Shown here piece by piece: positions 9,776-63,148 of a stretch of 64,000 nucleotides of DNA. The notes under the pieces were generated by a model. It worked only from the letters and a program-made list of their open reading frames with translations. It was not told where the DNA came from and searched no databases. Position 1 is the stretch's first letter. Each line of letters starts with the position of its first letter. Origin of the DNA: Pisaster brevispinus (Eukaryota > Echinodermata > Asteroidea > Forcipulatida > Asteriidae); assembly GCA_023634235.1 (NCBI GenBank), contig JAMKCF010000013.1, forward strand, positions 10,904,296 to 10,968,295. The letters are read 5' to 3'. A program made the translations under genes and the position numbers.

Positions 9776-9850
9776 TTACTTCAAATTCTCATAGATGGAG
9801 TTGGAGTCTAGATAGTCCTGGGCCACCCGATAGCATAACTGATACTGAGC
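9776..9850 (-). CDS. RPTP exon 36: C-terminus and stop
   Basis: The terminal exon encodes [14 protein letters not shown] and ends in IYENLK, then TAA at 9776-9778. It matches the last helix of a PTP D2 domain (family pattern EQYKFCYEVALEYL). Acceptor is TTTGACAG; entry phase 0. Confidence 0.9.
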   Translation of the reverse strand, partial: AQYQLCYRVAQDYLDSNSIYENLK

Positions 9851-15800: not shown

Positions 15801-16946
15801 GAAAAGTGGACTTTCCATACAGGGCTTTCATGTACATTAGGTTGATGGAGCCTACGCCAGAGCCAAAACCACAGCAGTTAGTTGGAAAAGGGCCAAAAAA
15901 GAAAGTTCTATTCAAAGGTTTTGATAATCTATCTTTAGTCACATTTCTGCAGAGATCATTTTTCTACCCATGTAGGTAGTTTTTACCGTACCTGGGAGGT
16001 TCTCCTGAAATCTGTTCTTATCAATGTTGTCTGACATCTTCCCTCCCCGACATTTGTCATCATTTGGAGTTACTGTAAAGATCTCCAACATCTAGTGAAT
16101 AAATGAAAATAACTTCATCATCAACATCATTTTAAACATGTTGTAACACTTTGATGTTTAAAGAGGAGCTCCAAGGTCAAAGTTCAGTTTTGTGATGCAT
16201 TCATTTCCCAATCAATACAGTCCTCATGAAAGTTGGGTAAATTACAAGTTTCTAATGTCACATTCTAATGGTGTAAAGTTGCAATATTTGATACTTTTTC
16301 TTAGTAAAACTTCAAGCATGACGGCAACACCAACAAAAACAAATGGGTCAGCAGATTCTAGAGAGAAATTTAGCACCAGTCAAAAAGCCAAATTCAAAAC
16401 CATTTGGATTGAATATCATAAACATTCAGGAATGAACTAAATATTCTCTTTACAAAAATGTACAGACCATTTATTGTTTATGTGACGCCATCAAACATGT
16501 TTTGATGCTGATAAAAGCTGATGTTAAAAGGTATCAATTACAGTAGCATTTTACATGGTTTTAACTATTTAACTATTGGAAAATTTGTTAATCACAAAAC
16601 TGAATTGTACCTTAGAGCCCCTCTCTAATTTTTACTAAATATTAGACCTCTAGAAATTTACCCCAAATTGAAGATATCTCACAATTGAGACCATGGTTTA
16701 TGATATCCATTGGGCTATGCCATGGACAAATGATTTGGTAGTTACACTATAGATGGTGTAACCTTTACATGTTTATTTCAGAGCCATAGAGCCTGCACTT
16801 CACGCAGTCACAGTTGCACAAGGCTGGTATAAACTATACAATTTTGTGGGAATGATTTTTATCAAAGAAAGGGGCGTATCTTAAAACTTGTTCTGATGTA
16901 ATTCGTTTTAATGCTTGTTTCAAACAGTACTTCTCATAGTTATAAC

Positions 16947-16977
<31 letters not shown>

Positions 16978-19900
16978 GACTTTAAAGCATGGCACATGAG
17001 CATTTTTACCAAGGTCACTGAGCCATCTTCCTTAAAATTAAATCCTCTCAGCTCTCTGTGTTGGATGCAGTCAGCGCTGCCAGGTACATGTACTTGTGTA
17101 CATAGAGATCAAACAAAATCAAATGAGGAGGAACGACAAGGTCACTATTTCTTTTTACAAAGGTTACCAGCCAAAATAATAAACAGTTTACATTGCTGCG
17201 ACTAATACCCCCCCCCCTCATTTCTTGCTTACCAAAGAATTTTGCTGAGCAGATTTTTCTGCTTAACAGCTTTATGAAATTGGGCTAATGTAAAAGTTTT
17301 TTAAAAATTTAAGTTTCAAACACAACAAGCTAATTTATAAAATTGAAAAACTTTCCAAAATATACACTTTCCAAAACAATCAGCAGCCAGCTAAAACTTT
17401 CAGTGATTTCTGCCTAGAGTTTTTTCCCTTAAGCAACTTTGGCTTAGATTGTTTCATGGTAGGATCAGAGTTTTTTTACTTACATGGAACTGGTCCTGGA
17501 TGCCAGAAGTTCCTGTTTTGGGGTCTCGTTTCTTGAGGCGACTGTAATCCTGATGTAGTTTAGCAATTGGGATGGCTGTGTTTTCACTCAGGCAAGATTC
17601 CAAAAGGGCATCGAAGATAAATTTGTACTGGTCCTGATGTACCAAAACAGTCAAGATTTAAATTGGAATAAATTTGATATTTAAAATGCATTTGTAACTG
17701 TGTTTTTTCTGATTGTAAATGAGAAAATTGCTAGTTGGGTTTGAATGATTTTTGGTACAATGCCTAGCTCAGTATGGGGGTTTTCATGCAAACAACTGGC
17801 ATTTAAACCATGTGACGTAGCAGTCAAAGGAAGTCTGATCGGGCATTCACTAAGAAACCAGGAAAGATATTATACCCCTGTTTTGTCAAATTAAACTTGC
17901 AAATGGTTTATTCCATTATAGTTTACTTGTTACACACCAGCGTTTGGACCATCCTGAATCGCTGTTCTCTCATGGCACGGACAAAGTTCAGAACGTCCAC
18001 TTTTCCCACAGCTTGCCCCTGTTCCAACATACTATCAACGGTGATGTACGTTCCTGTACGTCCAACACCAGCACTAGGTAACAAAGAAATAAAGGAGCAT
18101 GTCAATGGAGGCTGAACAAGAACAACTTGATTGGAAGTCAAAATAAACCTGTTGGAAACAGCAATGATATATTTTTACACCAGAATGGAATCAGAATATT
18201 GTAACCTTCCACCCTCACTTGGTTACATTGACCGGAATAAGTCATTTGTGCCTTAGATTTGAATAGTATCTTGTACAATGACTAAATTTGCAGTCCTCAT
18301 CAGTCCAACAGAATCAAACAGAACGTGCAGTTGGATTTTGAAGGGTGTTAGACGGTTAGGGTTAACGAACAACAAACACACTATTCTAAAAATAGAGGCT
18401 CGCTGTTTTGAACAAGAATATAGACATTCTCTTTTGGAACTCTTTGTGTCCCATTCAGACTCCTTTTTTAGGCAATTACGACTCTTAGGAGCTGTGTACC
18501 AGATTGGAAAGTTTAATGCTCATAAAATGCCACCCCCCCAAAAAGAAAAAGAAAAAAAAAACAAACAAACAAACAAACAAACACCCCCAAAACGAAACAA
18601 ACAAAAACAGAAAAAAAGCTTTCAAAAGCGAGGATTATTCTTAATCAGCTTAGAAAATAAATACACAAATTGGTTATCTGATTTTGTTAAGTTCATTGCT
18701 GAGTATTTCTAAGTTGTAGCTATTGGTTTTGTTGCAAACTGTTTATAAACGACAAATATCATGGAGATTGATAGATCATTAATATTCTGAGATGAAAAGA
18801 TACGTCTGCAGCAAAAAGTAAGGCATTTTACAAAATCATTTTCTATATTTGCAATACAAAAGAAAAGAACAACACCTGGACTGTCAATACACACTTGGTG
18901 CTTTTCAAGAAACAAACAGCCATAGTTTATTTCAAAAGAAGACGTCTTATTACATATCTCTGTAGTGCAGCCTTCAAAACTATAACTCTATTCAAAGGTG
19001 GCATGACAGTAATAGCCATTGCGTACAGAAGTCCAGAATTACATCTCAGTCCGATCCGATAAATAGTTTGGCAACAAGAATTTTATTTCCGAACCTTGAC
19101 TGAACAGTAAGCTTTTACGGAACAATTATTTTCAGATCTCGCTACAAAAGTATGAAAAACAATACATTTTGTCATCATGAGGCCGCAAAAGAACCTCATA
19201 CTATCCGTGTTCTCGTATCTTCCGTTTTTTAAGACATTAAAACATGCATGGGACAGTTCGGGACCGGTTAAATACCTCGTATTAACCGGCATCTCGTATC
19301 TTCCGAGCTCGTATTAACAAGAGTCGACTGTACTACCAAGTTCACTGGTAGTAATTACAAGCATGAAATTTGTTTTAGGAAAGTGTGATCACTTTCCTTG
19401 GGAAATAAAAAATCAGGAACCATACCTGCAGTGTACAACTATAGGACCTTGTTGGGTTGTTTCTGATGCCTGGACTCGTCTGACAAACTGGAGAAGGGGT
19501 GAAGACTCGGGTGGCTTCATATCAGGCCACGTGATGTAATGAAACTGCAGAACCTCACGAAACTCACCCTCGGGCTCGCTGCTCTGTACACACATAAAAT
19601 TAAAAGATTATTCTTTAACATCTCCACATTTAATACTACTGGAGTTTTATATAGTGCTTGTATCTACCAATAAGGTACTCAAGGGGCTTGATCCAAGAGA
19701 AATATTTAAGAAAGGTTTCTGAGGTTTTTGAATTACAATGTATGAGACAGATTTATGTAGCAGCATATTAGGGTTTACAAGGTGCCGAGAATGCACTCAG
19801 CAGCCATTGCCAGAAACACTGTGCTTGACGTGGTGTGTGTTCGCCGTCTGAGGCTGGTATTCAGTGGAAAGTGTCAGTTGATGCATTGGTGTTGGTGGAT

Positions 19901-43900: not shown

Positions 43901-46900
43901 GGTCAATGTTGTTCCCAGCATATATGTAACAGACATGTATCACTTACAATTAGACACTTGCATTGACATAATTTACAAACCTAACCAGTCCACTTAAAGA
44001 CATAAACAAGAAGGTTTCCCTTGCTTTGTGGTGAACCAGGAAGGCAAATATACTTGTCAATTAGGATATGACATGGGCCTGGAATGTCAGCTCAGATCAA
44101 TAAAAGGGGGCAAGAGTTCAAATTGATGAATCATAGCCAAGCAGTCTTTTGCACCAGACTCAAGTTTTGAGTGGGTTTGAATCCAGGTCATGACACTTGT
44201 GTCTTTGAGCACGACACTCAACTATATGTATAATTGTCTCTCTGCACACAGCAGCAATTGGGTACATAGGCTACTCATGTACTTAGAATGACATAAACAC
44301 ATGCCTATCACATGTTAAACAAACAGCCATTATTATTGGTTTGATGAACATCTACAACAGTACTCTTACCTCCTACTGTAGTGCTGGCTTCTACAGAGGT
44401 GCTGTAAGGTCCCTGCCCTGCACTTGTTACACCAGCAACTTGAAATATGTAGTCTGTACATGGGATCAATCCAGTCACTGTCACAGCTTCTGGCGCTACC
44501 TGTCCCTCCGATACATTACCGCTCACATCCTTCTGTTGAAGTTTGTAATGATATGTGATGGATCCATGTCGAGATCCACAAGGTATAGCATCCCAGGTAA
44601 AGGAAAGACTGTTTGTTTGACCACTGGAAGAAATGGCATTCTCAGGCTGTCCAGTAGGAACTGCAAGATAATGGGTTATACAAATGACATACAAGGATTT
44701 TTCCATCAATTGAAAACATCACAGTATGAGATGTGTAAGACAGTTGCCTCTGCCTGATACTTCAATAATGATTGTAAGATAATCATACATGTATTTGTTT
44801 ATTCTGGTACCCTAATTAATTACAATTAATTACACAAATTAAATTGTTTGTTTGTTCACTTGACTAAATGAAAAAAGTGTGCATGTGTTGCATGCATTGG
44901 GCACCCTGGGCAGGATCTACAAGTTTTGCAGCCGGCACTCAAAAAAGTAGAAACAAACGTATCCCCCTTCACCATGTATTTGATATGTTTTTACTGTATG
45001 AGTTTTTAACTCACAAGATTATTTTTTTCCACTCATTTCTCAAACAGCATTTTAGGCAAAAACTATTTGAAGGGACCAGGGCTCGATTTTAAGATAAATT
45101 TCCACAAGAAGTGCATGGGGTCAATAGATAAGACAATGAAAGGGACTGAAATGTAGCTGGGATAGAGGGCATATTAATACATGTTTTGTTCCTGATGATT
45201 TGTTTGATATTAAAGCAATGTCTAAGCCTCACCATTCTCCCCTGTAGTGACTGAGATAGAGGTTTCTGGTCCATCACCCATCTCATTCCATGCCTTGATG
45301 TACACAGTGTATTTAGAGAATGACAGTATGCCACTTGATATTATCAAACTGTCTGCATATAAATCTGTAAAAGGAATAAGAATAGAAGAAAAGGTAACAA
45401 TGCAATCGGATCTTTTTAAACATGTTTTAAAAAGCCCTACTCTATTACTTCCTCCTTTCATCACGCCACAAGAATTTCCCAAAACCACCTCAACTTCTTT
45501 GGAGTATACAGCACAGGCAACTGATCTGACACAAAGGTAACTCTCAAATCAGCAATACCATGTACCATCACATCAACAAACTTTTCCAAATCTTCAAGTT
45601 TTTCGAATGATGATGCTCAGTTGCAAACTTTCATTTACTTAAACCTCTGACTAAACCTATCCTTTCTTATCTACTGCACATTTGAACACACCATGCACGT
45701 GTACGCATTATACACAGCAGTACAAAACATCCTTATAGCTGATGCCAGATCACAACCTTGTACATTTTGTCTCAGATAGTTCTTATCCTCCAAATGACAA
45801 GGATCTACTTGGATAGAACAAACAATGAATGTCTTGCATTCGTGCAATGGAGAGAATATTTTCATTAGCTGAAAGATAAAATGTTCCATTAAACTCAAGG
45901 AACATTCTATTTTTCAATTCATGATATTTTCACACCATTGCACTCAAAAACATTCATTATTTGTATAATAAAGAAGTGGTAGATGAAGCCAAAGCCACTG
46001 TGGCATAGACAAGTTTGGTAATGGCTGTGGCTACCAGCAAATGCAGGGACCTAGCCAGTAGCTGTAGCTAAACTCAATGTGTCAAACAGCTATAGAGCAT
46101 CCTTGAATATGGCTGTGGCTAAATCTACATAAGCCATGATGGTCGACCTCGAGGGATGCATATTAACGGCAGACTAAGGCTGTATCTGAATTAGTGGTTA
46201 TGGTTATGGCTACATTGTTGCTAAGGGCGTTCTATACTTAGAGGCATGAAGATGTAGCAATCTAGCCATAGGCTGTAGCCGCAGCCACTATTTGTGACAC
46301 TTTCCTAACTGGATGAAACTATTTTTCTCAATGAATTTGCACACTCAGAACTACAAACCATTGTATGTCTGCTGCCATCTAGTGTTTAAGCATGACAGTA
46401 TGCAAAGTGCTAGCCACAGATGTAGCCATAGTCAGTGGTTTAAAACTATAACAGTTTGACAAAGCTTAGGCTTTATATGACAATGAAGCAAATCATCAGC
46501 TGTAATCACAGTTGTTGTGTCTTACAAGGCCTGTACCTGAGGTTACTTCAACTCGTTGCGAAGTGGTTTCCTGACACTGGTCCCCATTGGTCAATTTATA
46601 TGCAATTTGGTAACGCTCCACTGCACAGAGATTGCTGACAAACTTCAAGTCCAGATGAATTTGAGTTGGGAAGGCCGATGGTGCTACATCATGAAACAAA
46701 GTCACAACTGTTGGAACTATCATACAAATAGAAAGGAATTATGACTACATTTGTACTTGTATTTACATCCTGACAGTGACAGGTAACAATTAGTTTCAGT
46801 TTCACTTTTTAGATTTGTTTTCCTCCTTATATTATTAATATTATTTATTTAAAACAATTTTTTTTTTGAGATTCGCCTTACATCACAAGACCGGATGGGC

Positions 46901-49900
46901 ACTTCAAGGTGAGGGCTACACTTAACTGATTTGGGCTGTAGACCCAAATCAACTGTCACCGTGGGCACAATGCCACCTACTTCCAGGGCTGAAACAGAGT
47001 CAGTGTGTAAGGATGTAGGCATGGTTAGCATCCACTAGGAGCCTGGTTGGTGGAGCAGAATGCACTACCTTCCCAACTTTTTATGAAGCAATATTGTTAA
47101 GTGCTTTACTCCAACCCTCTGCTGCTGAGCAGACAACACCAGAGCTTGGGTCCAGTGAACTAGATCGCCCAGCCACAACGCGCCACAATTTGTTTCTTAA
47201 TTTAACCATGGAAAATGAAAGCACATTTTTCTATCCTGGATGATATTGTGTTTTTCGAGGGGGGGGGGGAGGTGGAGAAAAGTTTACATTTAGAAAAATA
47301 TGTTCTGGACTGAAAACTCCTGCTGTCGATTTCACCAAACTCTTCCTAACTTAGGATTAATCTTAGGACTTAGGACGAGTCCCAGCCTTGCACTGTAACA
47401 TGTAAACCTTAAGATTAATCCTAAAATAGGACTAGTTACTCGTCCTAACTCGAGATAGGATTAATCCTAGCGTTTCGTGAAATCGGCTGCTGGTCTCGGT
47501 CGAAAGAAGAAACAAATCATTAACCAAACAGGGGTGGATTTCACAAAGAGTTAAGACTAGTCTTATCTCGAGTTAGGACGATTTACTCATCCTAACTTAG
47601 GACTAGCCTTAAGTTTTTAATAACTCCTAGGACTAGTCCTAAGTTAGGACTATCTTTGTGAAATCGACCCCAGAAACTATTTACCTTCACATGGTGTTGT
47701 GCAATTCCAACCACCAAAGCCAGCGCCACAACCATCTGCAACAATTGCAAATAAAAACAATTAACTGAATGATTAAAACAAACAAATTGATCTTTTCTAC
47801 AGTTGTTTATCTGTGCATAAAATATGTTATCTCAGAACAAAGAGTCACCATGAGAATGGTTCACTCTGGGTTAGAAAATGAAGTGTGTGGGTCATTGACC
47901 TCACCAACTAACAATAAATTTAAACTCCCACCCACTTGAAAGGAGACCTACCACAACTTGATTAATTTAAAAATGCTTGGCTTCTGCAGAGCCCATCATA
48001 AAGCCTGGAAGCACATGAACTTGCTGGGGACAGAAAAACTGTGCTCAATAGCAATAGGTTTACAAAAATACCATACAGTTTACGTTGCTGCAACTTGCCA
48101 AGCAGAGCTTTCTGCTTAACAGAATCATGAAACTGGGCCCAAGTCTTAAAGTTCCACAACTGCAATAGCAAACTGCAACATCAACATGCTAATTAAATTC
48201 ACATATGCATACAAACACTATTGGTTGGCAAATGCAGCCACAGACTGCTTCCAAACTTTATACTTAGACTGTATTCAGACAAAAGATAACCCTTTTTTGT
48301 GTACTAAGAAAAAACCTGTAATTTATCTTGTGTTCAAACCGTCATGAAACTCTAGTCCCATTGTGAATACAAATGGCAAAATATTTAAGAAACACCAGGG
48401 TAATACTCTTCATTTTACCTTGGCAGTTGATGCCCTTGTAGCCAGATGCACAGTTGCCTGGGCACCGGCCTGTTGCTTTATCACATGCTGCTTGATCACT
48501 GCAGTGACACATAAGTGCACAGTTTGCTCCGAACGTTCCATCATCACATTCTAACGTCAATAAAAGGAAAGGAAAGAAAAGTTTACTATTTCAAACAACT
48601 ATTTTTATCTGTTAGCTTTAATTGGATCATACTTCATGCAGAAGCAAATGCAAAGCCAATATTGGTGATCTATGCCAACAATTACAAAGCACTGTTTTTC
48701 CCATAGAGATGGAAGGACACTCGCTTTGATTTGGCAATTTATGTGAATTACATGACAAGTCTATCAGGTCTACCTCTCTGGAAATCATTTGTATTATGTG
48801 AAAGAAAACACCCAATAGCTGAAAAAAATCAATCTGTATGTATCCTTATTTATTTATTTGTTTTTTCTAGTTTAGTGTTTTGTATTGACAAGTGTGTTCT
48901 GTCGTAAACACTTTCTTAAAAAATTAACAGTGATGCTGCTGAAACCCCTCAGCCCATCATGTAAAATCTAACTAACCAAAGAAACCTATAAACATGTTCC
49001 TGCAGACTAAAGCCCTGTTCGCACTGGACTTATTTTGGGTAAACTAACCGAGCAAATGGGTAACTTGACCATTTTAAGTCCAATGCGAACAGCCCAGGAA
49101 GTTTCCCTCCCAGGTAACTTACCCGACCTGAATGGGTAGTTTAACCGACCCACGTCTGCCCGGTTAAATTGACCAGGTCAGTTTAACCGAGCCGAAAAGT
49201 CCAGTGCGAACGCGATCTGGGTAAAAGCTGTCCCGGTAAAAAGCCACATCCGGTCCCCCGACCGCCGCGCCACACGTAGTGTACACGTATTATGTAAGTA
49301 TTTACACGTCCCACGCACATGTAATTTACACGGACGGAAGTTCGGTTGCACTCTCGCTGTCATGCATCCCGGTCAAAGGTCACGGCAATAGCGCCCTCTT
49401 ATGTCTGTCCTAAGTTAGTCGGTTAGTTTTACCGGTCGTGTCGGTTAGTTTACCCACGTCAATAATCCAAGTGCGGACGCTGGTAAGTTTCACCTATTGG
49501 AATGTTAACCACGGTCTCGGTAAAACATTAATCCAATGCGAACACGGCTTTAGTAACCTGTGATATCACATGTTTACAAAAGAGCCACTGAGCCTGGACT
49601 TCCTGCAGGTACCATTTGTGCACAACTCAATGGAAGAAAACATTAAATGTTATATTTTACGGAGGTCTAATTTTTATCTTATTACTTTTAACACTCTTAA
49701 TTTTTGTGGGAATTGTGATACAACAGGTAAAATTTCCCATATGACCAGTGTAGTATCTTGCCTGCCAGAAAGGCCCTGGAATAAACAAGGTCACTCTTTG
49801 TACACAAATGTTACATGGTCTGTATATACGACCTTGACATTTGACCTATTGACTATAAAAGAATATCAAGCTGCCTTATCTCAAGCGTATCTCGCCATCA

Positions 49901-52900
49901 ATTGTTTAGTGACAAAATAGCTTTCGAAACAAAAGATTATGATACAGAATATGTGAAGGCCTAATAAATCACCACTGTGACCTTTTAACTGGAGTTATGG
50001 TCCAGTAAACATTTAGCTATAAATCACCACCGTGACCTCCAGGCCTCGAAATAACCCACGGCACACACAGTGAAAGTTCCAATACAAATTTACATTTTCC
50101 TCATAGAGTGCCCTTTACCAGAGGAAAATTGTCGTGCCCCTTCAAGAGCGAAGTTTAAGGCCTGGACCTTGACCTTTGAACTTTTTACTCCCCCAAAAAA
50201 ATTCCCAATTTTCCTTTCCCCAAGGGCGAGCCCCCCGAGTCAAAATGTCACTTCTAACTCAAGTTACGGTCCAGAAACAAAAGTGCCCAACCGGACAGAC
50301 AGACAGATGCCGTATGCATAACAATACCCCTTTAGGGGTAAAAACAGTAAAATTTCACTTTTAAAAAATAACTCCACCTTACAACTCATACCTGTATTAC
50401 AATCAATTCCTTTGTACCCAGCAGGGCAGATGCATCCAAATGGATCTGGTAAGCAAAACAGCAGCCCTTCACAGGAAGTAGTACCAGGCAACAAACCAGA
50501 ATCACAGCTGAGACTACCATCTTTGCCAAAGCGGTTGGGTCCAAGCACTGTAATCAACAAAAGGTTAAATTGCATAAACTGATGGACAGTCTTTCATGTG
50601 CAAATACAGAGTATGTAATCTAGCAATGATTCAGTATCACTACACAGTACTGTAACTCCCTAACAAAATTTGAAATTTTTTGTTAAGAGCGTGACAAACA
50701 AATTAGTGGGCATTGAGCAACAGATGGACAGAAAGAAAGGTTGCAGTTTGACATATATTTAATCTCTTTTTACACTCAGACAAATAAGAAAAGGGAGGGA
50801 CAAAATAAACCAACTTACTTTTTTGCCACAGCTTGACACTGCATACATTTAAACTATGTAGCAACCCATTGAAAAAAATGCAATTAAAGAAAATTTACCC
50901 CTGGCAAGGAGCCGGATACCAAACACAGGGCAAACTGGCTAAACAGACATAAAAGACATTACGGTACATTTAAACTCATGGACTACCACTCCCATTTAAA
51001 CATCTAACATTATTTATGGACATCCTCGCCCATCAAACCAATAGTGGCCACACCCACTTGGTCCTACCAACATACAAAATGGACTACCTCGTCCATAACC
51101 AAGTCTCACAACAAACATGAACAAAATGGGTCACATGCCCCGGTTACAGGTCCCCTAACTGACCTCCACAGATGCACAACATGTAACATACCTTGCCTTA
51201 AAATTTACATGTACTCTTATAACATCACAATTTTAGAAAGCCTATAATTATTATTTCCCCAAGTTTGAACATACGAGGGGACAGTTAAAATAGCCCCAAC
51301 ATTACCGAATGGCACTATTATATATCATAATTTTAAATTAGTGAAGCTGTAGCCTTACACAAATACTAAATGCACACGTAGAATTTACAACAATGGAATT
51401 TTCCCCAAGTTGGAAAGAATGAGGGGACAGGTAAACTAGCCACAGCTATACCGAAGGGCACTAGTTTTTTGTTAAAAATGTTTCCAAATCGGTTGCTCTT
51501 AAAGTTATAACTGCCTGTAAAAACTCAACCTGCCGCTAATAAAACCACAGCTACCTGTTTTTTGTTGTTAGAAATGTACCAAGTTACTGTCATTTTTCTG
51601 GGTTGAACTTTTATCCACTCACATTTCTTCTAGGCGTAGCGCACTCATGGCTGGCTGCCCGCCACAATCAAAGCCCACAAAATTCTATGTAAATAGCGCC
51701 ACCAACAAAACTGCTCCTTTTACGCCAACACACAAATACCCCACTGTGCACGCCCAGCATGCATACCAAACCATTTACAATCAATGCACCCACTGCCCAA
51801 AGACACAACTGGATAATCTCACATGCATGCACACATCATGCAAGGAATGAATGTAAGTGCTGAGTATGAAACATTTTATCATTAAAATGATAAAATGAAA
51901 TATTTAGCGAGTGTGTGGTTCTGAGAACAACCAGAGGTTTACATTTTGAAAACCACAATAATCTTGCTCTGTTCCTCATTCAGCAAAACAAAGGTTTTTA
52001 AATGGTTAAACTGCAGGATTTGCAATCGTAAAGTTGTGGGTTTAGATCCAGCCAAGGTAACCACTGGTTTCACAATGACAAGTGTATCCTCCAGAGCTCA
52101 CTTTTCAACGATTGAATGACATTTCTTGGAATAAAGAAAAACAAACAAATGCAATGTGTCAACTGAGCTGAGGTCCTAATTACCTTCCTTGGTTTGTTAG
52201 AGAAGTTGTATACGCAAACAACTTTTAAACATGTAAGTGTCACAATTTTCACACCACAGTCCATTGTTAATTAATTTTACTCTAATTTCACACACGGTGT
52301 CCCTGTGAAGCCTTGCGTGGACCAATGTCTGCAGTGACTTCAAGTGTTATGTGTAACTCTAACAATGACTCTATAGCTGGCGATTAGTCTTTAAAGGCCA
52401 TTCTTCAAAACAAATATCAAATTTCAAAAAAATGGCAGATGAAAAGTAAATTAGTACTAGTACTGTAGTAGTAGTACTAGTTGTACCAGTAACACTTAAT
52501 TGTACAAATGTTTCTTTGCTTTCGACTCTAAGGATTTCTGTGTTTTGTGTCTCTTTTTGTGTATTTTTCTTATTTAATAGGCCTAAATCATCAAAGTGAA
52601 CAGTAACAACAAAACTAATTTTGATTATCAGATGTGTATTTTATTTATAACATTAATATTGGAACGGTATTGGTGAAACCATGGTGAAACGCAGCACTTG
52701 TCAATGCCATCAATTTCAAGATATTGTTGTCATCATTAAGTGCACATGTTCTGTGGATAAGACAACTACCCTTCATGGAAACTGAGTTTGTCAATTTGCA
52801 ATCTTCTACGATAGGTATTCAATTGTTGTCTGACTCTAATTGAATCACAATTTGTTGATTAGTGCAATTCATTATCAATCATAGAATGTATGTTATGTTA

Positions 52901-55566
52901 AAGTAAAGCAGTAATGAAGATGTACGAGAGAGATTGGCTGTATTAATGTAGCAGGCTTGTTTTAAATTTATATTGTGGGAGCTTTGCCGAGTTCACTTGG
53001 TTGAAAGACTATCTAAGCAAACAAACAAAAAGGACAAACTGGGTTGGTTGTGAGACTTCAGGCACTCTTCAGCCCTGGTCAGTGGTTACAAGGTAGGACG
53101 CTAGTCTCTGTTGCATGCACTGGACCAAATCACTCTTTGAGCGTTTGTCAATTTGTTGTCGTCTGCTACAGAACATGGACAAAACCCTTATAAAACCAAG
53201 TATCATCTATTCTGTATGAGTGAAGTCAGACAGAACAGTGTGTAAAAAACATCTCAGCACTCTCTTCACATTACATCAATACAAGAAAACTCACCAATTT
53301 CACAAATATCGCCGCTGAACCCAGGCGGGCAAATACACAAGCCACCATCATCACAAACTCCACCATTGAAGCAAACTGGACAGTTCTCACTGCATGAGGG
53401 TGCACTCCATTTATCTTGATGGCATTCTGTGTGTATACAACAGCGTGCTATTATTTGTAATGATTAGTTCCTGCATACTATAGCTATGTCTCCCAAACTT
53501 TTTAGCTTAGATCATGTTATTTGTTTCAAATAATATAGGTCTACCCATGATATGTCACAAGGAAAAAAATATTTAAATAAAACCTGGGGTAAATAAAGAA
53601 AAATAACTACATTACAGAGCGTACGTGTTTTTAACTGAATACCGAACACGTCGGCACCTCGCAAACTCGGCACCTTGTAAACTCGGCACCTGGCAAACTC
53701 GACACCCACTCAGCGCCAAGAATGTCGGCACCATACGAACTCGGCACCAGCCTATTTTTGATTAACAAACTCGTCACCAAGCAATCACTACCTGTTTTCG
53801 CAGGAAGGGTCAAGTGGTTTACTACAGTAACGTACGGCCTACATGTTAGACAATCAAAATGATTGAGGGATTTTTCGATCCTTTCGCTATATTTCGATTT
53901 ACAATGGTGCAAACGTTGAAATTTCACGTGAAAAGTGGGTAGCATCATGAAGGGGCATTTGCGAATGCTAAGCCTGTGGTCTACTCGGTGTCCTTTGCCC
54001 GTGGTCCTGTGAAGTCCGACTAACACGGGGAGGCCTAGGTGATTTACATTTAATCATAACAAAATGGAGAAGCTTTCTACAGTGTATATGATTTAGTTTA
54101 GTTAAAAGATCATCCCATGATAACTTCCTTTTGACATACTATTTGACTAGGAGGGAATGTGGACCATTTAAAATTGTTCATTTATTTTTTGGGCGTAGTA
54201 AACAAAATTTGTTTACAAACAGACATTTTAATAGTAACTTTAAACCGAAGTGAAGGTCACAGATGGTCACACTTTGTGTATTAAAGATTTTTTAAAAACT
54301 CAAGGGTCTTTCACATGGTCCAAAGATCTTGAATGTAACAGTTATGTTTCCCCGGATATAATTTTTTTTCAATCTTCAATGAAATTACCTCCTCGTTTAC
54401 ATGTACCACGTAGCGGTAAAACGGCCGTTTTCGACGGGGTGCCAAATTTGTATTTGTGCATGATGTGCCGCGTTTGTGGGTGCCACGTTTGCTAGGTGCC
54501 GAGATTGTGGGTGCCGACTTTGCAAGGTGCCGAGTTTGTTAGCGCCTGAGTTTGCAAGGTGCCGAAGTGACCGGTTACCTTTGAACCTGCAATCACCATC
54601 ATTTTTGTATTAATAATAATATATGTGCCTTATTTCATTATGTTTGGGCAAAAAAGTAAATTTATCTAAATAACACGTATGCAGTTGCTTTTCATTAGTT
54701 GCTTCATTTGATTTTGAAGGATTTTCTTCTATTCTAGCCTATTTATTCAATGATTGATTCATAACATTGATTTACCTCTGACAAGTAACCTCACGAACGC
54801 CTGTTTGCCTTCATTGCGAGCCATGGCTTGATGAACCTCGTATGTTCCAGCATGTGTGCTACTTGCTCCCTGGATATCATACTGAAGATTGCCACTGAAC
54901 GCAGCGTAAGGAGGATTGCTGCTATCCTTTCTCCAACGAGTAGCTGTCCGCGTGCCCGTAACAGTAACTGCAAGACTTACATCATCCCCTGAGTTTACCG
55001 TCTGGCTTATAGCAGTTGGCAGAAAGTCAGCTGAACGGGACAATTAAATTATGTAGTTGAACTGGTTAGAGAAAAGGGCCATATCATGACAATGGATGTT
55101 CATAAAGAAATGGAACATTCACCAATATTTTACTGTGACTGTGAACGGTTTTTCATATATTTCTATATTAAGAACGTATCTTTATTTACATTATTTGAGG
55201 TCATTTATCAGTGCCAGATTCAATACCTTCAATGCTCATAATAACGGTGCCAATGCTAGTCGATACACCTCCAGTTGTGGCTTGACAAGCATATTATACC
55301 AATCCGTGAGACCCCGCCAGATGCCGGCATCCGTAGAACAGAGACAGAAACATCACCGTCAACAGCCGTTGGGTCCAGAGTGCCTGGTAAGCTTCGGTCA
55401 GTTTGGTCTTGGTCGAGGGTTCCAGTTGTGAAAGTGAATTGATGAGTACGAGCAACAGAGAGAGTTCCGTCCAAGTTGACAAAGAATCCAGCTATGAAGG
55501 TCTCCTCTGAAGAAAGTGGGACTCTTGGTTTAGTTACGCAGGTAAAATCGTCTACGGCAAACACAC
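9776..55566 (-). CDS. Receptor tyrosine phosphatase with Tie-like ectodomain (36 exons)
   Basis: Single-pass receptor predicted to sense an extracellular ligand and dephosphorylate phosphotyrosine inside the cell. Domain order is Ig, Ig, EGF x3 plus a fragment, FN3 x about 7, TM, D1, D2. Thirty-six exons with GT/AG borders sum to 1,770 codons including the stop, once one extra base in exon 1 is discounted. D1 has KNRYVNI, the WPD loop and [10 protein letters not shown] split across exons 27/28, so it should be catalytic. D2 has WPT and [11 protein letters not shown], so it should be inactive. The Ig2-EGF part follows the Tie1/Tie2 pattern (FLPTAI...[21 protein letters not shown]), whereas D2 resembles type IIB RPTPs (PTPRK/M). 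Most ectodomain exons are phase 1-1 modules. The signal peptide exon was not identified. Only the pairing of Tie-like ectodomain and PTPs is unusual; each part is clear. Confidence 0.92.
10670..11049 (+). repeat. tRNA-derived SINE
   Basis: The head looks like a class II tRNA (Leu/Ser type): A box TGGCCGAGCGG, B box GGTTCGAATCC. A body of about 280 bp and an A-rich tail follow. It lies in the intron between exons 36 and 35, opposite to the gene. A second, inverted copy is at 46857-47187. Confidence 0.85.
11186..11321 (-). CDS. RPTP exon 35: D2 pseudo-signature
   Basis: Encodes [20 protein letters not shown] and on to MVQSL. With the end of exon 34 this gives [12 protein letters not shown] where an active PTP has VHCSAGxGRSG. 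The Cys remains, but His is Gln and the phosphate-binding Arg is Cys. Entry phase 2, exit phase 0. Confidence 0.92.
11811..11965 (-). CDS. RPTP exon 34: D2 WPD-loop exon
   Basis: Encodes [20 protein letters not shown] through to GPVTVQC. The general-acid loop reads WPT, not WPD, so the catalytic Asp is lost. Donor GTAAGT splits the codon after the Cys. Confidence 0.93.
12300..12431 (-). CDS. RPTP exon 33: D2
   Basis: Encodes [20 protein letters not shown] through to YNSDRK (44 codons, phase 0-0). It matches the CxQYWP segment of PTP domains, with Ala in place of the usual Cys. Confidence 0.92.
12626..12995 (+). repeat. Dispersed repeat of about 350 bp, copy 1
   Basis: Begins CCAGTATCTGCACTTTGTG and includes 'TTTCANGNGAAGTTTTCC' and 'ATGACCAT'. 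It shares its order of motifs with 25235-25590 and 39494-39840. Non-coding; class unknown. Confidence 0.55.
13998..14129 (-). CDS. RPTP exon 32: D2
   Basis: Encodes [20 protein letters not shown] through to SMDNDP (44 codons, phase 0-0). It has the [18 protein letters not shown] motif of PTP domains (here [10 protein letters not shown]). Confidence 0.94.
14924..15000 (-). CDS. RPTP exon 31: D2
   Basis: Encodes [20 protein letters not shown] through to NATFLD, the DYINAS-equivalent region of D2. Entry phase 1, exit phase 0. Confidence 0.92.
15755..15897. repeat. Small inverted-repeat element (MITE-like)
   Basis: The ends share GGCTCTGG and GGCTCCATCAA-like strings in inverted orientation (GGCCCCTGGGTCTGGCTCTG on the left; GGCCCTTTTCC then TTGGCTCTGG on the other strand). 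Imperfect arms; family unknown. Confidence 0.4.
15992..16091 (-). CDS. RPTP exon 30: start of D2
   Basis: Encodes [20 protein letters not shown] through to [14 protein letters not shown] is the D2 version of the KNRY motif. Phase 0 in, phase 1 out. Confidence 0.92.
16158..16630. mobile_element. MITE with about 40-bp imperfect TIRs
   Basis: The left end reads AAAGAGGAGCTCCAAGGT...TTCAGTTTTGTGAT. The right end, on the other strand, reads TTAGAGAGGGGCTCTAAGGT...TTCAGTTTTGTGAT. Interior about 390 bp, no transposase. It lies in the intron 66 bp from exon 30, on the acceptor side. Confidence 0.65.
16945..16976. repeat. (AAT)n microsatellite
   Basis: About ten AAT/ATA units in the intron between exons 29 and 30. 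Confidence 0.95.
17158..17287. repeat. Dispersed repeat (TTACATTG..GAAATTGGGC family), copy 1
   Basis: Contains GGTTACCAGCC, AGTTTACATTGCTGCGAC and TGCTTAACAGCTTTATGAAA. Similar copies are at 37615-37740 and 48050-48142. The copies sit in different introns of one gene, so the family is probably abundant in this genome. Confidence 0.6.
17484..17633 (-). CDS. RPTP exon 29: end of D1 and D1-D2 linker
   Basis: Encodes [20 protein letters not shown] through to SGIQDQFH (50 codons). The DQYxFIYDALLE helix follows the Q-loop of D1. Phase 0-0. Confidence 0.94.
17938..18073 (-). CDS. RPTP exon 28: D1 catalytic signature (second half)
   Basis: Encodes [16 protein letters not shown] through to FRMVQTL. 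Joined to exon 27 it completes the P-loop [11 protein letters not shown] with Cys and Arg present. MVQT supplies the Q-loop Gln. Phase 2 in, 0 out. Confidence 0.96.
18535..18617. repeat. Low-complexity (CAAA)n / A-rich tract
   Basis: Poly-C, then poly-A, then about five ACAA units. Intronic simple repeat between exons 27 and 28. Confidence 0.85.
19426..19583 (-). CDS. RPTP exon 27: D1 WPD loop and catalytic Cys
   Basis: Encodes [20 protein letters not shown] and on to IVVHC. WPD is intact (TWPDMKPPE). The catalytic Cys is the last full codon; the next Ser codon is split AG|T by the intron. Phase 0 in, 2 out. Confidence 0.96.
19954..20474. mobile_element. MITE/foldback of the 'TTCAGAC' type
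   Basis: The ends are inverted copies: TAGGCTATGGGGTCGTTCAG on the left, and TAGGCCATGTTCAGACCCGA on the right (other strand). Internal inverted pieces (GTTAAACC, GTCTGAACG) recur. No coding capacity. Confidence 0.55.
20756..20872 (-). CDS. RPTP exon 26: D1
   Basis: Encodes [20 protein letters not shown] through to RKFHLSK (39 codons, phase 0-0). It carries the KCxxYWP motif of PTP domains. Confidence 0.95.
21040..21310 (+). repeat. tRNA-like SINE, diverged
   Basis: Has a B-box-like GGGTTCGATTCCAGC, 'AATTGCTTCGTCCTTTGGAT' and a 3' part CCTTACAAAGTGCTATATAA. It is related to, but distinct from, the SINE at 10670. Confidence 0.55.
21552..21649 (-). CDS. RPTP exon 25: D1
   Basis: Encodes [20 protein letters not shown] through to TNLVENGK. 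It matches the GPxxxTVxDFWRMVWxQ segment. Phase 1 in, 0 out. Confidence 0.96.
22504..22540 (-). CDS. RPTP exon 24: D1 micro-exon
   Basis: 37-base exon encoding [13 protein letters not shown], the GYxxxxxYIATQGP segment, with TTGTAG acceptor and GTGAGG donor. Phase 0 in, 1 out. The usual Thr of YIATQG is Cys. Confidence 0.94.
23087..23290. repeat. Minisatellite, 36-bp unit with 48-bp variants
   Basis: About five copies of a unit with CACTGTTCTCATCATAAATA followed by ACCATCTAATACTGAA. Later copies add a 12-base ATAATACTGAAC extension. It ends 57 bp from exon 23 in the intron. Lengths are multiples of 3, hence long open frames that are not genes. Confidence 0.95.
23347..23423 (-). CDS. RPTP exon 23: D1
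   Basis: Encodes [20 protein letters not shown] through to ACYIH (25 codons). It continues [10 protein letters not shown] into DHSRV and DYINA. Phase 1 in, 0 out. Confidence 0.96.
23848..23935 (-). CDS. RPTP exon 22: D1 KNRY exon
   Basis: Encodes [20 protein letters not shown] through KNRYVNIIA. The KNRYxNI phosphotyrosine-recognition motif is intact. Phase 0 in, 1 out. Confidence 0.95.
24900..25130 (+). mobile_element. LINE 3' end, truncated
   Basis: Encodes [13 protein letters not shown] then [20 protein letters not shown], the C-terminal tail of many invertebrate LINE proteins. It ends near 25115 with an ATGATGATGACG tail. 5'-truncated relic in the intron between exons 21 and 22, antisense to the gene. 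Confidence 0.8.
25235..25590 (+). repeat. Dispersed repeat of about 350 bp, copy 2
   Basis: Begins CCAGTATCCACACTTTATGTG and includes 'GTGACCCAA', 'TCATCAGAGTC' and 'GTTGCACAATGTGCATACC'. Same order of motifs as 12626-12995. Confidence 0.55.
25857..26056 (-). CDS. RPTP exon 21: juxtamembrane region and D1 wedge
   Basis: Encodes [20 protein letters not shown], a [15 protein letters not shown] linker and GLADYIKRN...FQHDYE. The last part is the helix-turn-helix wedge seen before D1 in receptor PTPs. Lys-rich linker. Phase 1 in, 0 out. Confidence 0.95.
27444..28860. repeat. Large 42-bp minisatellite, about 33-34 copies
   Basis: The unit is AAGATTGACTTCCCATGGGC followed by TTGGTGCTATAACTATCATGCC (22 bases). 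Variants are ATAACTAATATGCC, ATCATGTC and one CATGGGCGTGG. Because 42 is a multiple of 3 and the unit lacks stops in several frames, long ORFs appear on both strands. None has start context, splice signals or homology, so I treat them as artefacts. It lies in the intron between exons 20 and 21. Confidence 0.98.
29087..29166 (-). CDS. RPTP exon 20: cytoplasmic stop-transfer segment
   Basis: With the split codon from exon 19 it encodes [14 protein letters not shown] through to NPSVE, the basic segment just inside the membrane. Acceptor TTGTTAG lies against a 54-bp minisatellite. Phase 2 in, 1 out. Confidence 0.92.
29175..29447. repeat. 54-bp minisatellite, about 5 copies, abutting a splice acceptor
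   Basis: The unit contains AATATCTGTCAGTTTGATTG and CCAGAGAAACAAACCAAATA, and recurs exactly every 54 bases (29181, 29235, 29289, 29343, 29397). It starts about 9 bases from the exon 20 boundary. On the gene strand each unit carries a pyrimidine-rich stretch and a CTGACAG that resembles a 3' splice site. Confidence 0.97.
29448..31782. other. Intron between exons 19 and 20, nothing recognised
   Basis: AT-rich intronic DNA with short open frames lacking domains or splice support. I see no repeat or RNA gene I can name. Confidence 0.4.
31783..31894 (-). CDS. RPTP exon 19: transmembrane helix
   Basis: Encodes [14 protein letters not shown], then [20 protein letters not shown] and KVYR. The hydrophobic run of about 20 residues followed by basic residues is the single membrane span. 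Phase 1 in, 2 out. Confidence 0.96.
32788..33095. repeat. 30-bp minisatellite, about 10 copies
   Basis: Unit TTCAAAATTACAACTTGTCA then TTGGGTGGGG, diverged between copies. Multiple-of-3 unit gives decapeptide open frames on both strands. Intron between exons 18 and 19. Confidence 0.95.
33796..33838 (-). CDS. RPTP exon 18: membrane-proximal micro-exon
   Basis: 43-base exon encoding [14 protein letters not shown], ectodomain stalk before the TM exon. Phase 0 in, 1 out. Confidence 0.88.
35127..35361 (-). CDS. RPTP exon 17: membrane-proximal FN3-like segment
   Basis: Encodes [20 protein letters not shown] through [30 protein letters not shown] to SRINET. The YIAAELP...VGDNKxYGGYxNAPL motif is typical of the membrane-proximal part of PTPRK/M/T/U-type receptors. 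Phase 2 in, 0 out. Confidence 0.95.
36062..36161 (-). CDS. RPTP exon 16: FN3-like segment
   Basis: Encodes [20 protein letters not shown] through to TSKYIT, the first half of the membrane-proximal FN3-like domain completed by exon 17. Phase 1 in, 2 out. Confidence 0.9.
37247..37466 (-). CDS. RPTP exon 15: FN3 (second half)
   Basis: Encodes [20 protein letters not shown] through [19 protein letters not shown] to FTAIAS. LxPxTxYxLxVxA is the FN3 core motif. Its splice acceptor and first bases are tandemly duplicated (period 52 bp). Phase 0 in, 1 out. Confidence 0.93.
37445..37549. repeat. 52-bp tandem duplication over the exon 15 acceptor
   Basis: TTAATACCACACGATG, then TCCAATCTGTAAATAAGAAA and a further 16 bases, occurs at 37445-37496 and again at 37497-37549 with about one mismatch (TCCAAT/TTCAAT). 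The copy includes the 3' splice site and 22 bases of exon 15, so the gene has two adjacent candidate acceptors. Confidence 0.95.
37615..37740. repeat. Dispersed repeat (TTACATTG..GAAATTGGGC family), copy 2
   Basis: GTTACCAGCCTACATAAAGT, TTACATTGTTGCGACT and AACAGCTTTATGAAATTGGG match 17158-17287. Confidence 0.6.
38325..38431 (-). CDS. RPTP exon 14: FN3 (first half)
   Basis: Encodes [20 protein letters not shown] then [15 protein letters not shown]; the Trp of the FN3 fold is present. Phase 1 in, 0 out. Confidence 0.92.
39230..39299 (-). CDS. RPTP exon 13: FN3 (end)
   Basis: 70-base exon encoding [20 protein letters not shown] and VPG, the last strands of the FN3 begun in exon 12. Phase 0 in, 1 out. 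Confidence 0.92.
39494..39840 (+). repeat. Dispersed repeat of about 350 bp, copy 3
   Basis: Starts GTCAAAGACCAGTATCTGCA and contains TTTCAAAGGAAGTTTTCCC and CATTGTGCACACC, paralleling 12626-12995. Confidence 0.55.
39954..40192 (-). CDS. RPTP exon 12: FN3 (first part)
   Basis: Encodes [40 protein letters not shown] and on to DYSFQ. WxxPxxPxGxIxxYxIxY is a textbook FN3 motif. Phase 1 in, 0 out. Confidence 0.95.
41143..41433 (-). CDS. RPTP exon 11: complete FN3
   Basis: One FN3 in one exon, phase 1-1: [60 protein letters not shown]. It carries the CG insert also seen in the exon 9 repeat, so the two are likely copies of one module. Confidence 0.95.
42359..42637. mobile_element. piggyBac-like MITE
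   Basis: TTAA at both borders (42359-42362 and 42634-42637). The ends read CTCGTTGACAGCCGG on the left and CACGTTGACTGCCGG on the right (other strand). TTAA target duplications are the piggyBac hallmark. The interior has a palindrome-like TACGAGTATATTCGTAG. No transposase. Confidence 0.65.
42992..43303 (-). CDS. RPTP exon 10: complete FN3
   Basis: Phase 1-1 FN3: [60 protein letters not shown], ending VRTAEI. Two Cys may form an extra disulfide. Confidence 0.95.
44140..44290 (+). repeat. SINE fragment
   Basis: A B-box-like GGGTTTGAATCCAGGTCATG is followed by ACACTTGTGTCTTTGAGCA, as in the SINE at 10670 (GTCATGACACTTGTGCCC). Truncated and diverged. Confidence 0.55.
44370..44660 (-). CDS. RPTP exon 9: complete FN3
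   Basis: Phase 1-1 FN3: [60 protein letters not shown]. Same length (291 bp) as exon 11. Confidence 0.95.
45233..45364 (-). CDS. RPTP exon 8: FN3 (second half)
   Basis: Encodes [20 protein letters not shown] then [20 protein letters not shown]. The [14 protein letters not shown] end is typical of FN3. Phase 1-1. Confidence 0.92.
46537..46683 (-). CDS. RPTP exon 7: FN3 (first half)
   Basis: Encodes [20 protein letters not shown] through [10 protein letters not shown] to VEVTS. It pairs with exon 8 to make the first FN3 after the EGF modules. Phase 1-1. Confidence 0.88.
46857..47187 (-). repeat. tRNA-derived SINE, inverted copy
   Basis: Reads on the minus strand as the SINE at 10670 does on the plus: tRNA-like head near 47187, 'CAGTTGATTTGGGTCTACAG' body, A-rich tail at 46857-46867. 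Somewhat more diverged. Confidence 0.8.
47324..47488. mobile_element. MITE, 'GTCGATTTCAC' family, copy 1
   Basis: Inverted ends GTCGATTTCACCAAAC and (other strand) GCCGATTTCACGAAAC, with internal inverted words TAGGATTAATC. About 165 bp. Confidence 0.75.
47531..47671. mobile_element. MITE, 'GTCGATTTCAC' family, copy 2
   Basis: Inverted ends GGTGGATTTCACAAAG and (other strand) GGTCGATTTCACAAAG, with internal GACTAGTCCTAA palindromes. About 141 bp; it ends 14 bases from exon 6, next to the donor site. Confidence 0.8.
47685..47735 (-). CDS. RPTP exon 6: EGF fragment
   Basis: 51-base exon encoding [17 protein letters not shown], the first part of a laminin/EGF-like module, then direct entry to FN3. 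In Tie receptors an Ig domain sits between EGF and FN3; none is seen here. Phase 1-1. Confidence 0.85.
48050..48142. repeat. Dispersed repeat (TTACATTG..GAAATTGGGC family), copy 3
   Basis: AGTTTACGTTGCTGCAACTT, TGCTTAACAGAATCATGAAA and CTGGGCCCAA match 17158-17287. Confidence 0.55.
48419..48550 (-). CDS. RPTP exon 5: EGF module 3
   Basis: Encodes [20 protein letters not shown] then [20 protein letters not shown] and INCQ. Laminin-type EGF, equivalent to the third EGF of Tie receptors. Phase 1-1. Confidence 0.95.
49007..49553. mobile_element. MITE, 'AAAGCC.GTTCGCA' family
   Basis: Ends CTAAAGCCCTGTTCGCACTG and (other strand) CTAAAGCCGTGTTCGCATTG. There is also an internal inverted copy (AAGTCCAATGCGAACAG near 49077-49094). 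Interior rich in GGTTAGTTTACCC-like words. About 547 bp, non-coding. Confidence 0.75.
50392..50547 (-). CDS. RPTP exon 4: EGF module 2 (Tie-type)
   Basis: Encodes [20 protein letters not shown] through [20 protein letters not shown] to GIDCNT. FCLPDPxGCxCxxGxKGxxC is a motif shared with the second EGF of Tie1/Tie2. Phase 1-1. Confidence 0.95.
50700..53290. other. Large part of the intron between exons 3 and 4
   Basis: No exon, RNA gene or confidently named repeat seen. Short open frames such as that near 51647-51850 have no domain. A tRNA-like trace (GGTTTAGATCCAGCC near 52039) may be old SINE debris. Confidence 0.4.
53295..53426 (-). CDS. RPTP exon 3: EGF module 1
   Basis: Encodes [20 protein letters not shown] then [20 protein letters not shown] and ICEI. 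It follows the Tie pattern after RLxVR (KWGPEC...C..C...GVC...C.CPPGF.G..C). Phase 1-1. Confidence 0.96.
53640..54577. mobile_element. DNA element with inverted subterminal CGGCACC arrays
   Basis: The left end carries about six tandem CGGCACCTNGCAAACT-like words (53651-53750). The right end carries the same words inverted (about 54420-54570). Outer TIRs are about 35 bp (TACCGAACACGTCGGCACCT; other strand TAACCGGTCACTTCGGCACC). Interior unremarkable. Non-autonomous DNA transposon of unknown superfamily. Confidence 0.75.
54776..55030 (-). CDS. RPTP exon 2: Ig-like domain 2 (Tie-type)
   Basis: Encodes [20 protein letters not shown] through [11 protein letters not shown] to AFVRLLVRE. It parallels the Tie2 segment between Ig1 and the first EGF (FLPAT...GDNVNI...GVYSARY...RLIVR). 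It lacks the canonical Ig cysteines, as that Tie segment also does. Phase 1-1. Confidence 0.93.
55227..55566 (-). CDS. RPTP exon 1: Ig-like domain 1, with a 1-base insertion
   Basis: Encodes [20 protein letters not shown] through [17 protein letters not shown] in one frame. It then continues in the next frame as [20 protein letters not shown] and IEG, which splices in phase into exon 2. The switch needs one extra base within 55291-55299 (ATATTATACC on the plus strand). Without it the Ig F-strand YxC is restored. Either a sequencing/assembly error or a real null allele. Phase 1-1 with the insertion discounted. Confidence 0.88.
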
Positions 55567-62563: not shown

Positions 62564-63148
62564 TTACCAAGGAAGATGAATAGCGGGGAGCGGTGTCATT
62601 ACTGCGTCTGCCAATGGGGCTGCCAAACGAAACCGACTCATCTGGAAACGTGATAAAGCATCAGCAATCTCGTTAAATTTGCCAGGAACATGTACGGCTC
62701 GAAACGAAATATTAGTTTTGAGACAAATCACGACAAACTGTCGTACTAGTGCCATGATTTTCTTACATGGCGAGGATTTCTTATTAATAATATGGACTAC
62801 AGCCATATTATCTGTGTGAAATTTGACTTTCTTACCAACTAGTAAAGGAGCCCAACAATGCAAAGCTACAAGTAGCGGGTAAAGCTCTAAAAATGCTATA
62901 GACAAATGTTGCTGCAAAATAACATCTGGCCAGCGACCCTGCACCCATTTGCCTTGGAAATATGCCCCGAAACCGATAGTAGCAGCCGCATCAGTGTACA
63001 ATTGTATTGTATCATTTGACTGCCACGCATTATCAGCAAACACAGAAACCCCATTAAAATGGGACAGGAACTCAAGCCAAGCTAGCAAATCAAGTCTAGC
63101 CCCTTGTGAAATGCGGACCCTGTGATGCGGGCGAGACAGTCCTTGCGT
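62564..63148 (-). pseudogene. RNase H of Ngaro/DIRS-like retrotransposon
   Basis: Encodes LYTDAAATIGFGAYFQGKW, AFLELYPLLVAL, HTDNMAVVHIINKKSS and a DALSRFQ tail: the D-E-D core of retroelement RNase H. In frame with the RT upstream apart from a TAA at 63149-63151. The next protein (recombinase) begins in another frame 2 bases later. Confidence 0.92.

Follow-up and report, generated by a model that had tools for sequence, protein, structure and literature searches.

A Tie-like head on a starfish receptor tyrosine phosphatase, in a tandem family of phosphatase and kinase genes

Introduction

The receptor kinases Tie1 and Tie2 (TEK) present an ectodomain headed by two Ig domains and three EGF repeats (EGF1-3) and carrying three fibronectin type III (FN3) domains; the Ig domains are the ligand-binding part of Tie2. 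Receptor protein tyrosine phosphatases (RPTPs) of the R2B type (PTPRK, PTPRM, PTPRT and PTPRU) have an N-terminal MAM domain, and receptor kinases and receptor phosphatases are usually viewed as families with their own ectodomains. In the paired activating and inhibitory immune receptors of vertebrates, like ectodomains are joined to opposite signaling tails, the genes are clustered, and the tails recruit enzymes through short motifs. Here we describe a gene in a stretch of 64,000 nucleotides (the window) of the starfish Pisaster brevispinus (assembly GCA_023634235.1, 549.7 Mb; contig JAMKCF010000013.1, hereafter C13, 10904296-10968295). The gene is probably a single-pass receptor protein tyrosine phosphatase (PTP) with a Tie head and a seven-FN3 stalk of R2B type, in a tandem family whose like heads carry PTP or kinase tails, exchanged repeatedly.

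The window gene has the Ig-Ig-EGF1-3 head of Tie1 and Tie2 in the same order and wording, but seven FN3 domains, no visible third Ig, and tandem PTP domains instead of a kinase. It is like the R2B phosphatases in its first PTP domain (D1), which is closest to theirs in sequence, and in its membrane-proximal FN3, which has the PTPRU profile and likeness to PTPRM (the latter measured on the kinase relative P0012); unlike them, it has a Tie head at the N-terminal place, and no MAM was found. Starfish kinases with the same head differ from it in the tail, a Tie-class kinase instead of a PTP. Tick and spider proteins join head and PTP as the window gene does, and many add an LCCL domain (13 of 21). 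By analogy, the starfish family resembles the paired immune receptors in its clustered like heads with opposite tails, with the difference that the starfish enzymes are built in. What is unusual against the known kinds of RPTP and Tie receptor is the exchange of tails on a common head.

Results

Architecture of the gene and its Tie head

Candidate exons were picked by open frames and simple splice-site scores and then joined. The resulting model occupies 9778-55566 of the window on the minus strand and comprises 36 exons and 1745 codons, with no stop and with phases that fit at every junction. The domains follow in the order Ig-like, Ig, three EGF and a partial fourth, seven FN3, transmembrane (TM) helix, juxtamembrane segment, D1 and the second PTP domain (D2) (Table 1). 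A preliminary description of this DNA had placed Tie order and wording in exons 1-5 and tandem PTP domains in exons 21-36, joined through seven FN3 and one TM in one in-phase gene, and this outline is borne out. Three of its four quoted Tie motifs were recovered by six-frame reading, and the fourth, RLLVRECHQDKW, crosses the exon 2-3 junction and is present in the spliced model. By Pfam, two stretches belong to Y_phosphatase (473.7 bits in all) and five to fn3, and the last FN3 is Fn3_PTPRU (PF23144, 994-1045); FN3-1 is assigned from exon anatomy and the orthologue. The weak splice sites of the model are the exon 1 donor (-3.4), the exon 19 acceptor (-0.8), the exon 21 donor (-0.3) and the exon 12 donor (0).

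Residues 87-313 of the model align with human Tie2 at E=3.9e-37 and 131.7 bits, far ahead of the best non-Tie chain (36.6 bits), and the alignment is co-linear across Ig2-EGF1-EGF2-EGF3; a comparison of Tie1/2 with MEGF-type proteins had been proposed as a check, and on these scores a generic MEGF-type head was rejected. The first Ig was approached through a structure model of the kinase paralogue P0023, of which the head alone (about residues 31-350) is confident and was used; the tail is poorly modeled because the alignment mixed tails. Tie2 is the top structural match of this head by a wide margin, and a Tie2-like fold of Ig1 is seen on it, not on the window copy. A third Ig between the EGF and FN3 domains of the window gene was not seen. 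The Pfam scan of the model gives no kinase, and the kinase tail of P0012 is without a match in the window.

Stalk and phosphatase tail

The intracellular part is that of a receptor PTP: the TM helix is followed by two PTP domains, and D1 holds the catalytic WPD loop and HCX5R motif. D2 holds WPT and VQCIDGLGCSG, without the catalytic arginine. Judged from these motifs, D1 should therefore be active and D2 not. Compared with RPTPs, as the preliminary description had advised, the tail finds RPTP matches. Among single-D1 chains the best for the window D1 is PTPRK (304.8 bits), followed by PTPRT (291.9), PTPRM (280.9), PTPRG (254.8), PTPRA (254.2), PTPRU (248), which is itself R2B and scores below PTPRG and PTPRA, and PTPRB (VE-PTP; 191.3). 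Two-domain chains are higher in total (PTPRA 474.7, PTPRS 448.6, LAR 442-446 bits) because D2 is included. The membrane-proximal FN3 presents an SRRS site and the wording AAELP...VGDNKxYxGY; exon 17 carries SRRSAP and the AAELP wording, and exon 18 enters in phase 0 and leaves in phase 1. When the corresponding domain is taken from the kinase P0012, its matches are PTPRM (4.3e-7) and PTPRD (9e-5). As far as these alignments go, D1 and the membrane-proximal FN3 are closest to PTPRK/M/T/U and not to VE-PTP, so the comparison with VE-PTP drawn at the outset falls away. The VE-PTP/R3 class was rejected on the two PTP domains, the Ig/EGF head and the far lower D1 score of PTPRB (R3 RPTPs are treated in PMC5336234). 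Pfam scanning of the model, whose signal-peptide exon is missing, gave no MAM family. The A. amurensis orthologue P0001 begins with a signal peptide that runs straight into the same head, which supports an architecture with no MAM.

Orthologues and kinases with the same head

A protein search with the window model (7988 candidates scored, 45 hits) found full-length orthologues annotated in Asterias amurensis (P0001, 76% identity over 100% of the model) and A. rubens (P0002, 75%), in both species under unrelated RPTP names. When P0001 was aligned to the window by tblastn, 32 of the 36 exons were matched, in order, with exons 6, 18, 19 and 24 below threshold. Identity is 68% and 70% in the Ig exons, 91-94% in EGF2 and EGF3 and 70-94% in the PTP exons; several FN3 exons, at 60-85% (one match overrunning its exon was set aside), are as divergent as the Ig exons. 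The Ig domains are therefore among the faster-changing parts, and not alone in this. Head and PTP in one protein are annotated separately in A. amurensis, A. rubens, Acanthaster and Patiria.

The same head is also found on tyrosine kinases: P0012, P0017 and P0023 in A. amurensis and, from a search with the P0012 head (80 hits), P0057, P0059, P0060, P0062, P0063, P0067 and P0070 in Patiria miniata. That search returned many phosphatases as well, and forms without either enzyme. PF23144 is listed in 8 of these 10 kinases, which are annotated as angiopoietin-1 receptor-like, Tie-1-like or uncharacterized. The kinase tail of P0012 scores 283.9 bits with Tie2, 244.2 with RET and about 229 with FGFR1, the top row being an EGFR-labelled chain whose two stretches sum to 317.4; by these matches the tail is of the Tie class. 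A tree of 30 kinase domains places the starfish members together with the starfish Tie-1-like P0054 in a single, fully supported group that excludes both vertebrate Tie and A. rubens P0034.

Two further forms were noted in passing. Nine phosphatase models (P0003, P0007, P0009, P0010, P0011, P0024, P0046, P0052 and P0053) have two Tie heads per protein, and P0148 (Acanthaster, polycystin 1-like 2) matches the Tie head over 69% of the query, as a further head partner or a model chimera.

A tandem array of heads and tails

The minus strand of C13:9.74-10.96 Mb holds Tie heads interleaved with tails of two kinds, PTP and Tie-class kinase (Table 1). Counts of heads and tails in the genome are lower bounds because the searches score best candidates only; 264 kb at one end of the array, the window included, and 50 kb more were read directly as DNA. 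The kinase genes read in this main array have other FN3 exons before the TM, as in P0023. Two further clusters lie at C13:16.90-17.11 and 9.23-9.31 Mb. There the kinase tails at six sites (16.975, 16.996, 17.019, 9.240, 9.272 and 9.310) have the R2B FN3 1-5 kb ahead of them, and a seventh (17.110) has it about 32 kb ahead; for the PTP tails at three sites (16.907, 16.945 and 17.050) the distance is 8-11 kb. In one of these kinase genes, at C13:16994046-17003690, Ig1, Ig2, EGFs, FN3s, R2B FN3 and kinase are matched in order within less than 10 kb, with one stop inside a blast-defined head piece that may overrun an exon end. Its junction exon is readable as phase 0 in and phase 1 out before the TM exon, like window exon 18. 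The donors at this junction are weak (-6.4 and 0.8), and the phase-1 intron before the TM is therefore a likely, not a proven, switch point: a switch at such an intron stands for the window gene, and for the kinase relative as far as its weak donors allow. Alternative kinase and PTP tails of one locus were considered and rejected, as the nearest match to the P0012 kinase tail lies about 132 kb beyond the gene end, with its own FN3 exons before it.

Three other units were seen. A unit of this family at C13:10.8934-10.8787 Mb consists of FN3 and a partial PTP, and neither a head nor a D2 match was found in it. Behind the Tie head exons at C13:10.7229-10.6953 Mb come additional EGF repeats, and no tail was found ahead of the next head; the product may be secreted or act as a decoy. 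Contig C98, at least 306 kb long, holds many head and kinase copies like those of C13 and is perhaps the other haplotype of the array.

Head and tail histories

The head of the kinase P0017 is 91% identical to that of the phosphatase P0005 and 58% to that of the kinase P0012, and the two kinases are 85% identical. In Patiria, the heads of P0067 (kinase) and P0069 (phosphatase) are 90% identical. In a tree built from 57 starfish heads, of which 19 belong to kinases, 29 to phosphatases and 9 to tail-less forms, 9 changes of the kinase label are needed, and well-supported branches force 7 of these. A stricter tree, which omits the possible chimeras P0012, P0017 and P0152 and all 9 tail-less rows, leaves 45 rows (17 kinase and 28 phosphatase) and needs 6 changes, 4 of them forced; a single kinase clade is rejected (p-AU, from the approximately unbiased test, 4.4e-5). 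For 16 rows hand-picked from the Patiria-type clade, p-AU against one kinase clade is 2.4e-7. Both values are weakened because the groups had already been seen on earlier trees before testing. The kinase label is nonetheless clustered on the head tree, since 0 of 500 shuffles needed so few changes. By these trees, head and tail are without one common history, and the tail appears to have changed between kinase and PTP at least four times on the starfish head tree.

The preliminary description had proposed that exon shuffling through phase-1 introns gave a kinase and a phosphatase the same head. The head is indeed common to both, phase 1 is the exit phase of every exon from 1 to 11 in the window gene, and the likely point of tail change is the phase-1 intron ahead of the TM exon; the part that changes proved to be the tail, with at least four changes.

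Occurrence beyond starfish

Tie-headed phosphatase models are present in sea urchins (Lytechinus and Diadema) and sea cucumbers (Holothuria and Apostichopus). The fusion that was to be sought in other deuterostome genomes is thus found in other starfish, urchins and sea cucumbers, but the Tie heads of the hemichordate Ptychodera (P0030) and of amphioxus (P0049 and P0073) are without a kinase or PTP match; in P0030 a TM and a tail rich in tyrosine are visible by eye. With a tick head as query, a third search gave 97 hits, of which 21 proteins were named, from ticks (20) and a spider (1). In 19 of these 21, at least 150 of the 243 window-head positions are matched; PTP is found in 18, head and PTP in 17, PF23144 in 14, LCCL (PF03815) in 13 and a kinase in 0. 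Many carry names of the type RPTP T-, U-, kappa- or mu-like. In the horseshoe crab, P0028 combines the head, FN3s and a TM and ends, by eye, within a juxtamembrane stretch like that of PTPs. In the P0012-head and tick-head searches a kinase domain is listed for the Tie-headed vertebrate hits, but not for the fish EGF protein P0103, which is a partial match only. This distribution suggests that the Tie head may have been on a phosphatase early in bilaterian history.

Discussion

The interleaved array and the mixed head tree can be explained by repeated exchange of tails, for which the simplest site is the phase-1 intron that separates the last stalk exon from the TM exon, with recombination as the presumed route. 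At the cell surface, ligand binding or clustering would bring the phosphatase beside kinase siblings with related heads. If the members are expressed together, share a ligand and send opposing signals, ligand-guided dephosphorylation could hold the tyrosine signals of the siblings low, as inhibitory members of paired receptor sets do.

Several observations weigh against this account. The R2B placing comes from best matches and not from a tree; the two-domain chains of PTPRA, PTPRS and LAR outscore it in total, and no D1-D2 R2B chain is among the best 60 matches listed. Heads and tails that lie 30-50 kb apart in the main array are joined through order and strand. The R2B FN3 was detected ahead of 7 of the 8 PTP tails in that array and of none of the kinase tails, and P0012 and P0017, which join an R2B stalk to a kinase, could therefore be prediction chimeras. 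The other protein models in the trees are also annotations and could be chimeric. Finally, exon 1 of the window copy is frame-shifted relative to the orthologues.

Kinase and phosphatase members might instead have split once, as ordinary subfamilies, their mixing on the head tree arising from gene conversion between heads. Paralogues on one contig convert easily, several heads are about 90% identical, and conversion would leave the same head tree as tail exchange. Still, the likeness of P0069 and P0070 extends from the signal peptide over the head, and a kinase gene and a PTP gene can have the same stalk as far as the exon that precedes the TM. Conversion must therefore copy most of the ectodomain yet spare the tail each time, and we consider it unlikely. 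The window copy could also be a decaying pseudogene of the family. P0001 matches exon 1 in two frames by tblastn (aa 22-113 at 55573-55295 and aa 114-134 at 55293-55234), which may reflect a true frame shift, an assembly error, or use of the weak 55300 donor (-3.4) that keeps the model open; a signal-peptide exon was not found from 55.4 kb to 10 kb past the window end. In the remaining 35 exons the frame is open and the joins are in phase, and the PTP exons are up to 94% identical to those of A. amurensis, which makes decay improbable. It is more improbable again that two adjacent genes, one with a Tie-like head and one with FN3 and PTP, were read as one by exon stitching in a tandem array. 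Such an artefact could arise in a model built from genomic DNA and would fit the exon 1 frame shift, the tail-less head at C13:10.7229-10.6953 Mb and the FN3 units with PTP or kinase found without a head. Against it stand the in-phase junctions throughout the 36 exons, the union of head and PTP within single proteins in separate starfish annotations and likewise in urchin, cucumber, tick and spider models, and the compact kinase relative, which holds head, stalk and tail within 10 kb. That the head is a generic MEGF/Ig one and convergent on Tie is hardly credible: EGF repeats are common to MEGF-type proteins, and P0045, P0075 and P0103 match more weakly, but neither the bit scores and co-linearity with Tie2 nor the structural match of the paralogue head would be expected of it.

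With tail exchange as the preferred explanation, one head type has had its tails swapped several times in one animal group, and a kinase/phosphatase balance set by gene-cluster recombination becomes testable. The arthropod phosphatase relatives of Tie, with no kinase among the 21 named hits, bear on the origin of Tie receptors. Tentatively, and with some doubt, the arrays could be viewed as paired receptors with built-in enzymes, refitted with a kinase, a phosphatase or no tail, by whose balance coelomocytes might read secreted ligand families (perhaps angiopoietin-like, with fibrinogen domains); the head may be older on the phosphatase than on the Tie kinase. The family is hidden by its annotation, as members are named RPTP mu-, kappa-, F-, alpha- or delta-like, sidekick-like or angiopoietin-1 receptor-like. 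A 2026 proteome (PMC13409769) includes starfish coelomocyte RPTPs, and the names RPTP alpha-like and F-like there are those of the Tie-headed A. rubens proteins P0016, P0047 and P0050, a likeness by name only; the available part of that paper makes no mention of a Tie head on phosphatases. A Tie-headed phosphatase was not found described in the literature searched; the sea urchin phosphatase survey PMC3045532 lay outside that search, and a prior mention there is possible.

Features of the window and array

Table 1 Exons and domains of the window gene (window positions) and tails of the main array from the window downward (C13, Mb)
Feature	Position	Strand	Remark
Exon 1, first Ig-like domain	55300..55566	-	Ig1 position of Tie head; frame-shifted relative to orthologues near 3' end
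Exon 2, second Ig domain	54776..55030	-	Tie2 Ig2 (FLPTAI...RLLVR)
Exon 3, EGF1	53295..53426	-	ECHQDKW...
Exon 4, EGF2	50392..50547	-	FCLPDPFGC; 94% identity to A. amurensis
Exon 5, EGF3	48419..48550	-	
Exon 6, partial fourth EGF	47685..47735	-	
FN3-1	45233..46683	-	Exons 7 (46683-46537) and 8 (45364-45233); exon anatomy and orthologue
FN3-2	44370..44660	-	Exon 9
FN3-3	42992..43303	-	Exon 10
FN3-4	41143..41433	-	Exon 11
FN3-5	39230..40192	-	Exons 12 (40192-39954) and 13 (39299-39230)
FN3-6	37247..38431	-	Exons 14 (38431-38325) and 15 (37466-37247)
FN3-7, membrane-proximal, R2B-type	33796..36161	-	Exons 16 (36161-36062), 17 (35361-35127) and 18 (33838-33796)
Exon 19, TM helix	31783..31894	-	Likely tail switch at the preceding phase-1 intron
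Exon 20, basic juxtamembrane segment	29087..29166	-	
Exon 21, juxtamembrane region and phosphatase start	25857..26056	-	
PTP D1	17484..23935	-	Exons 22-29 (23935-23848, 23423-23347, 22540-22504, 21649-21552, 20872-20756, 19583-19426, 18073-17938, 17633-17484)
PTP D2	9778..16091	-	Exons 30-36 (16091-15992, 15000-14924, 14129-13998, 12431-12300, 11965-11811, 11321-11186, 9850-9778)
PTP tail	10.93-10.91 Mb	-	
Partial PTP tail	10.88 Mb	-	
PTP tail	10.82-10.81 Mb	-	
Kinase tail	10.78 Mb	-	
Kinase tail	10.65 Mb	-	
Kinase tail	10.57 Mb	-	
Kinase tail	10.47 Mb	-	
Last exons of further kinase	10.46 Mb	-	
PTP tail	10.31-10.30 Mb	-	
PTP tail	10.21-10.20 Mb	-	
Kinase tail	10.06 Mb	-	
PTP tail	9.91-9.90 Mb	-	
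PTP tail	9.82 Mb	-	
PTP tail	9.75-9.74 Mb	-	

Repeats accompany the gene at several places. A minisatellite of about 34 copies of a 42-base unit lies at 27435-28858, in the intron after exon 20, and a 54-base array at 29175-29446 stands just upstream of exon 20. Retroelement pieces (reverse-transcriptase and RNase-H-like; RVT_1, RVT_3) flank the gene at 62567-63595 (-) and 349-990 (+).
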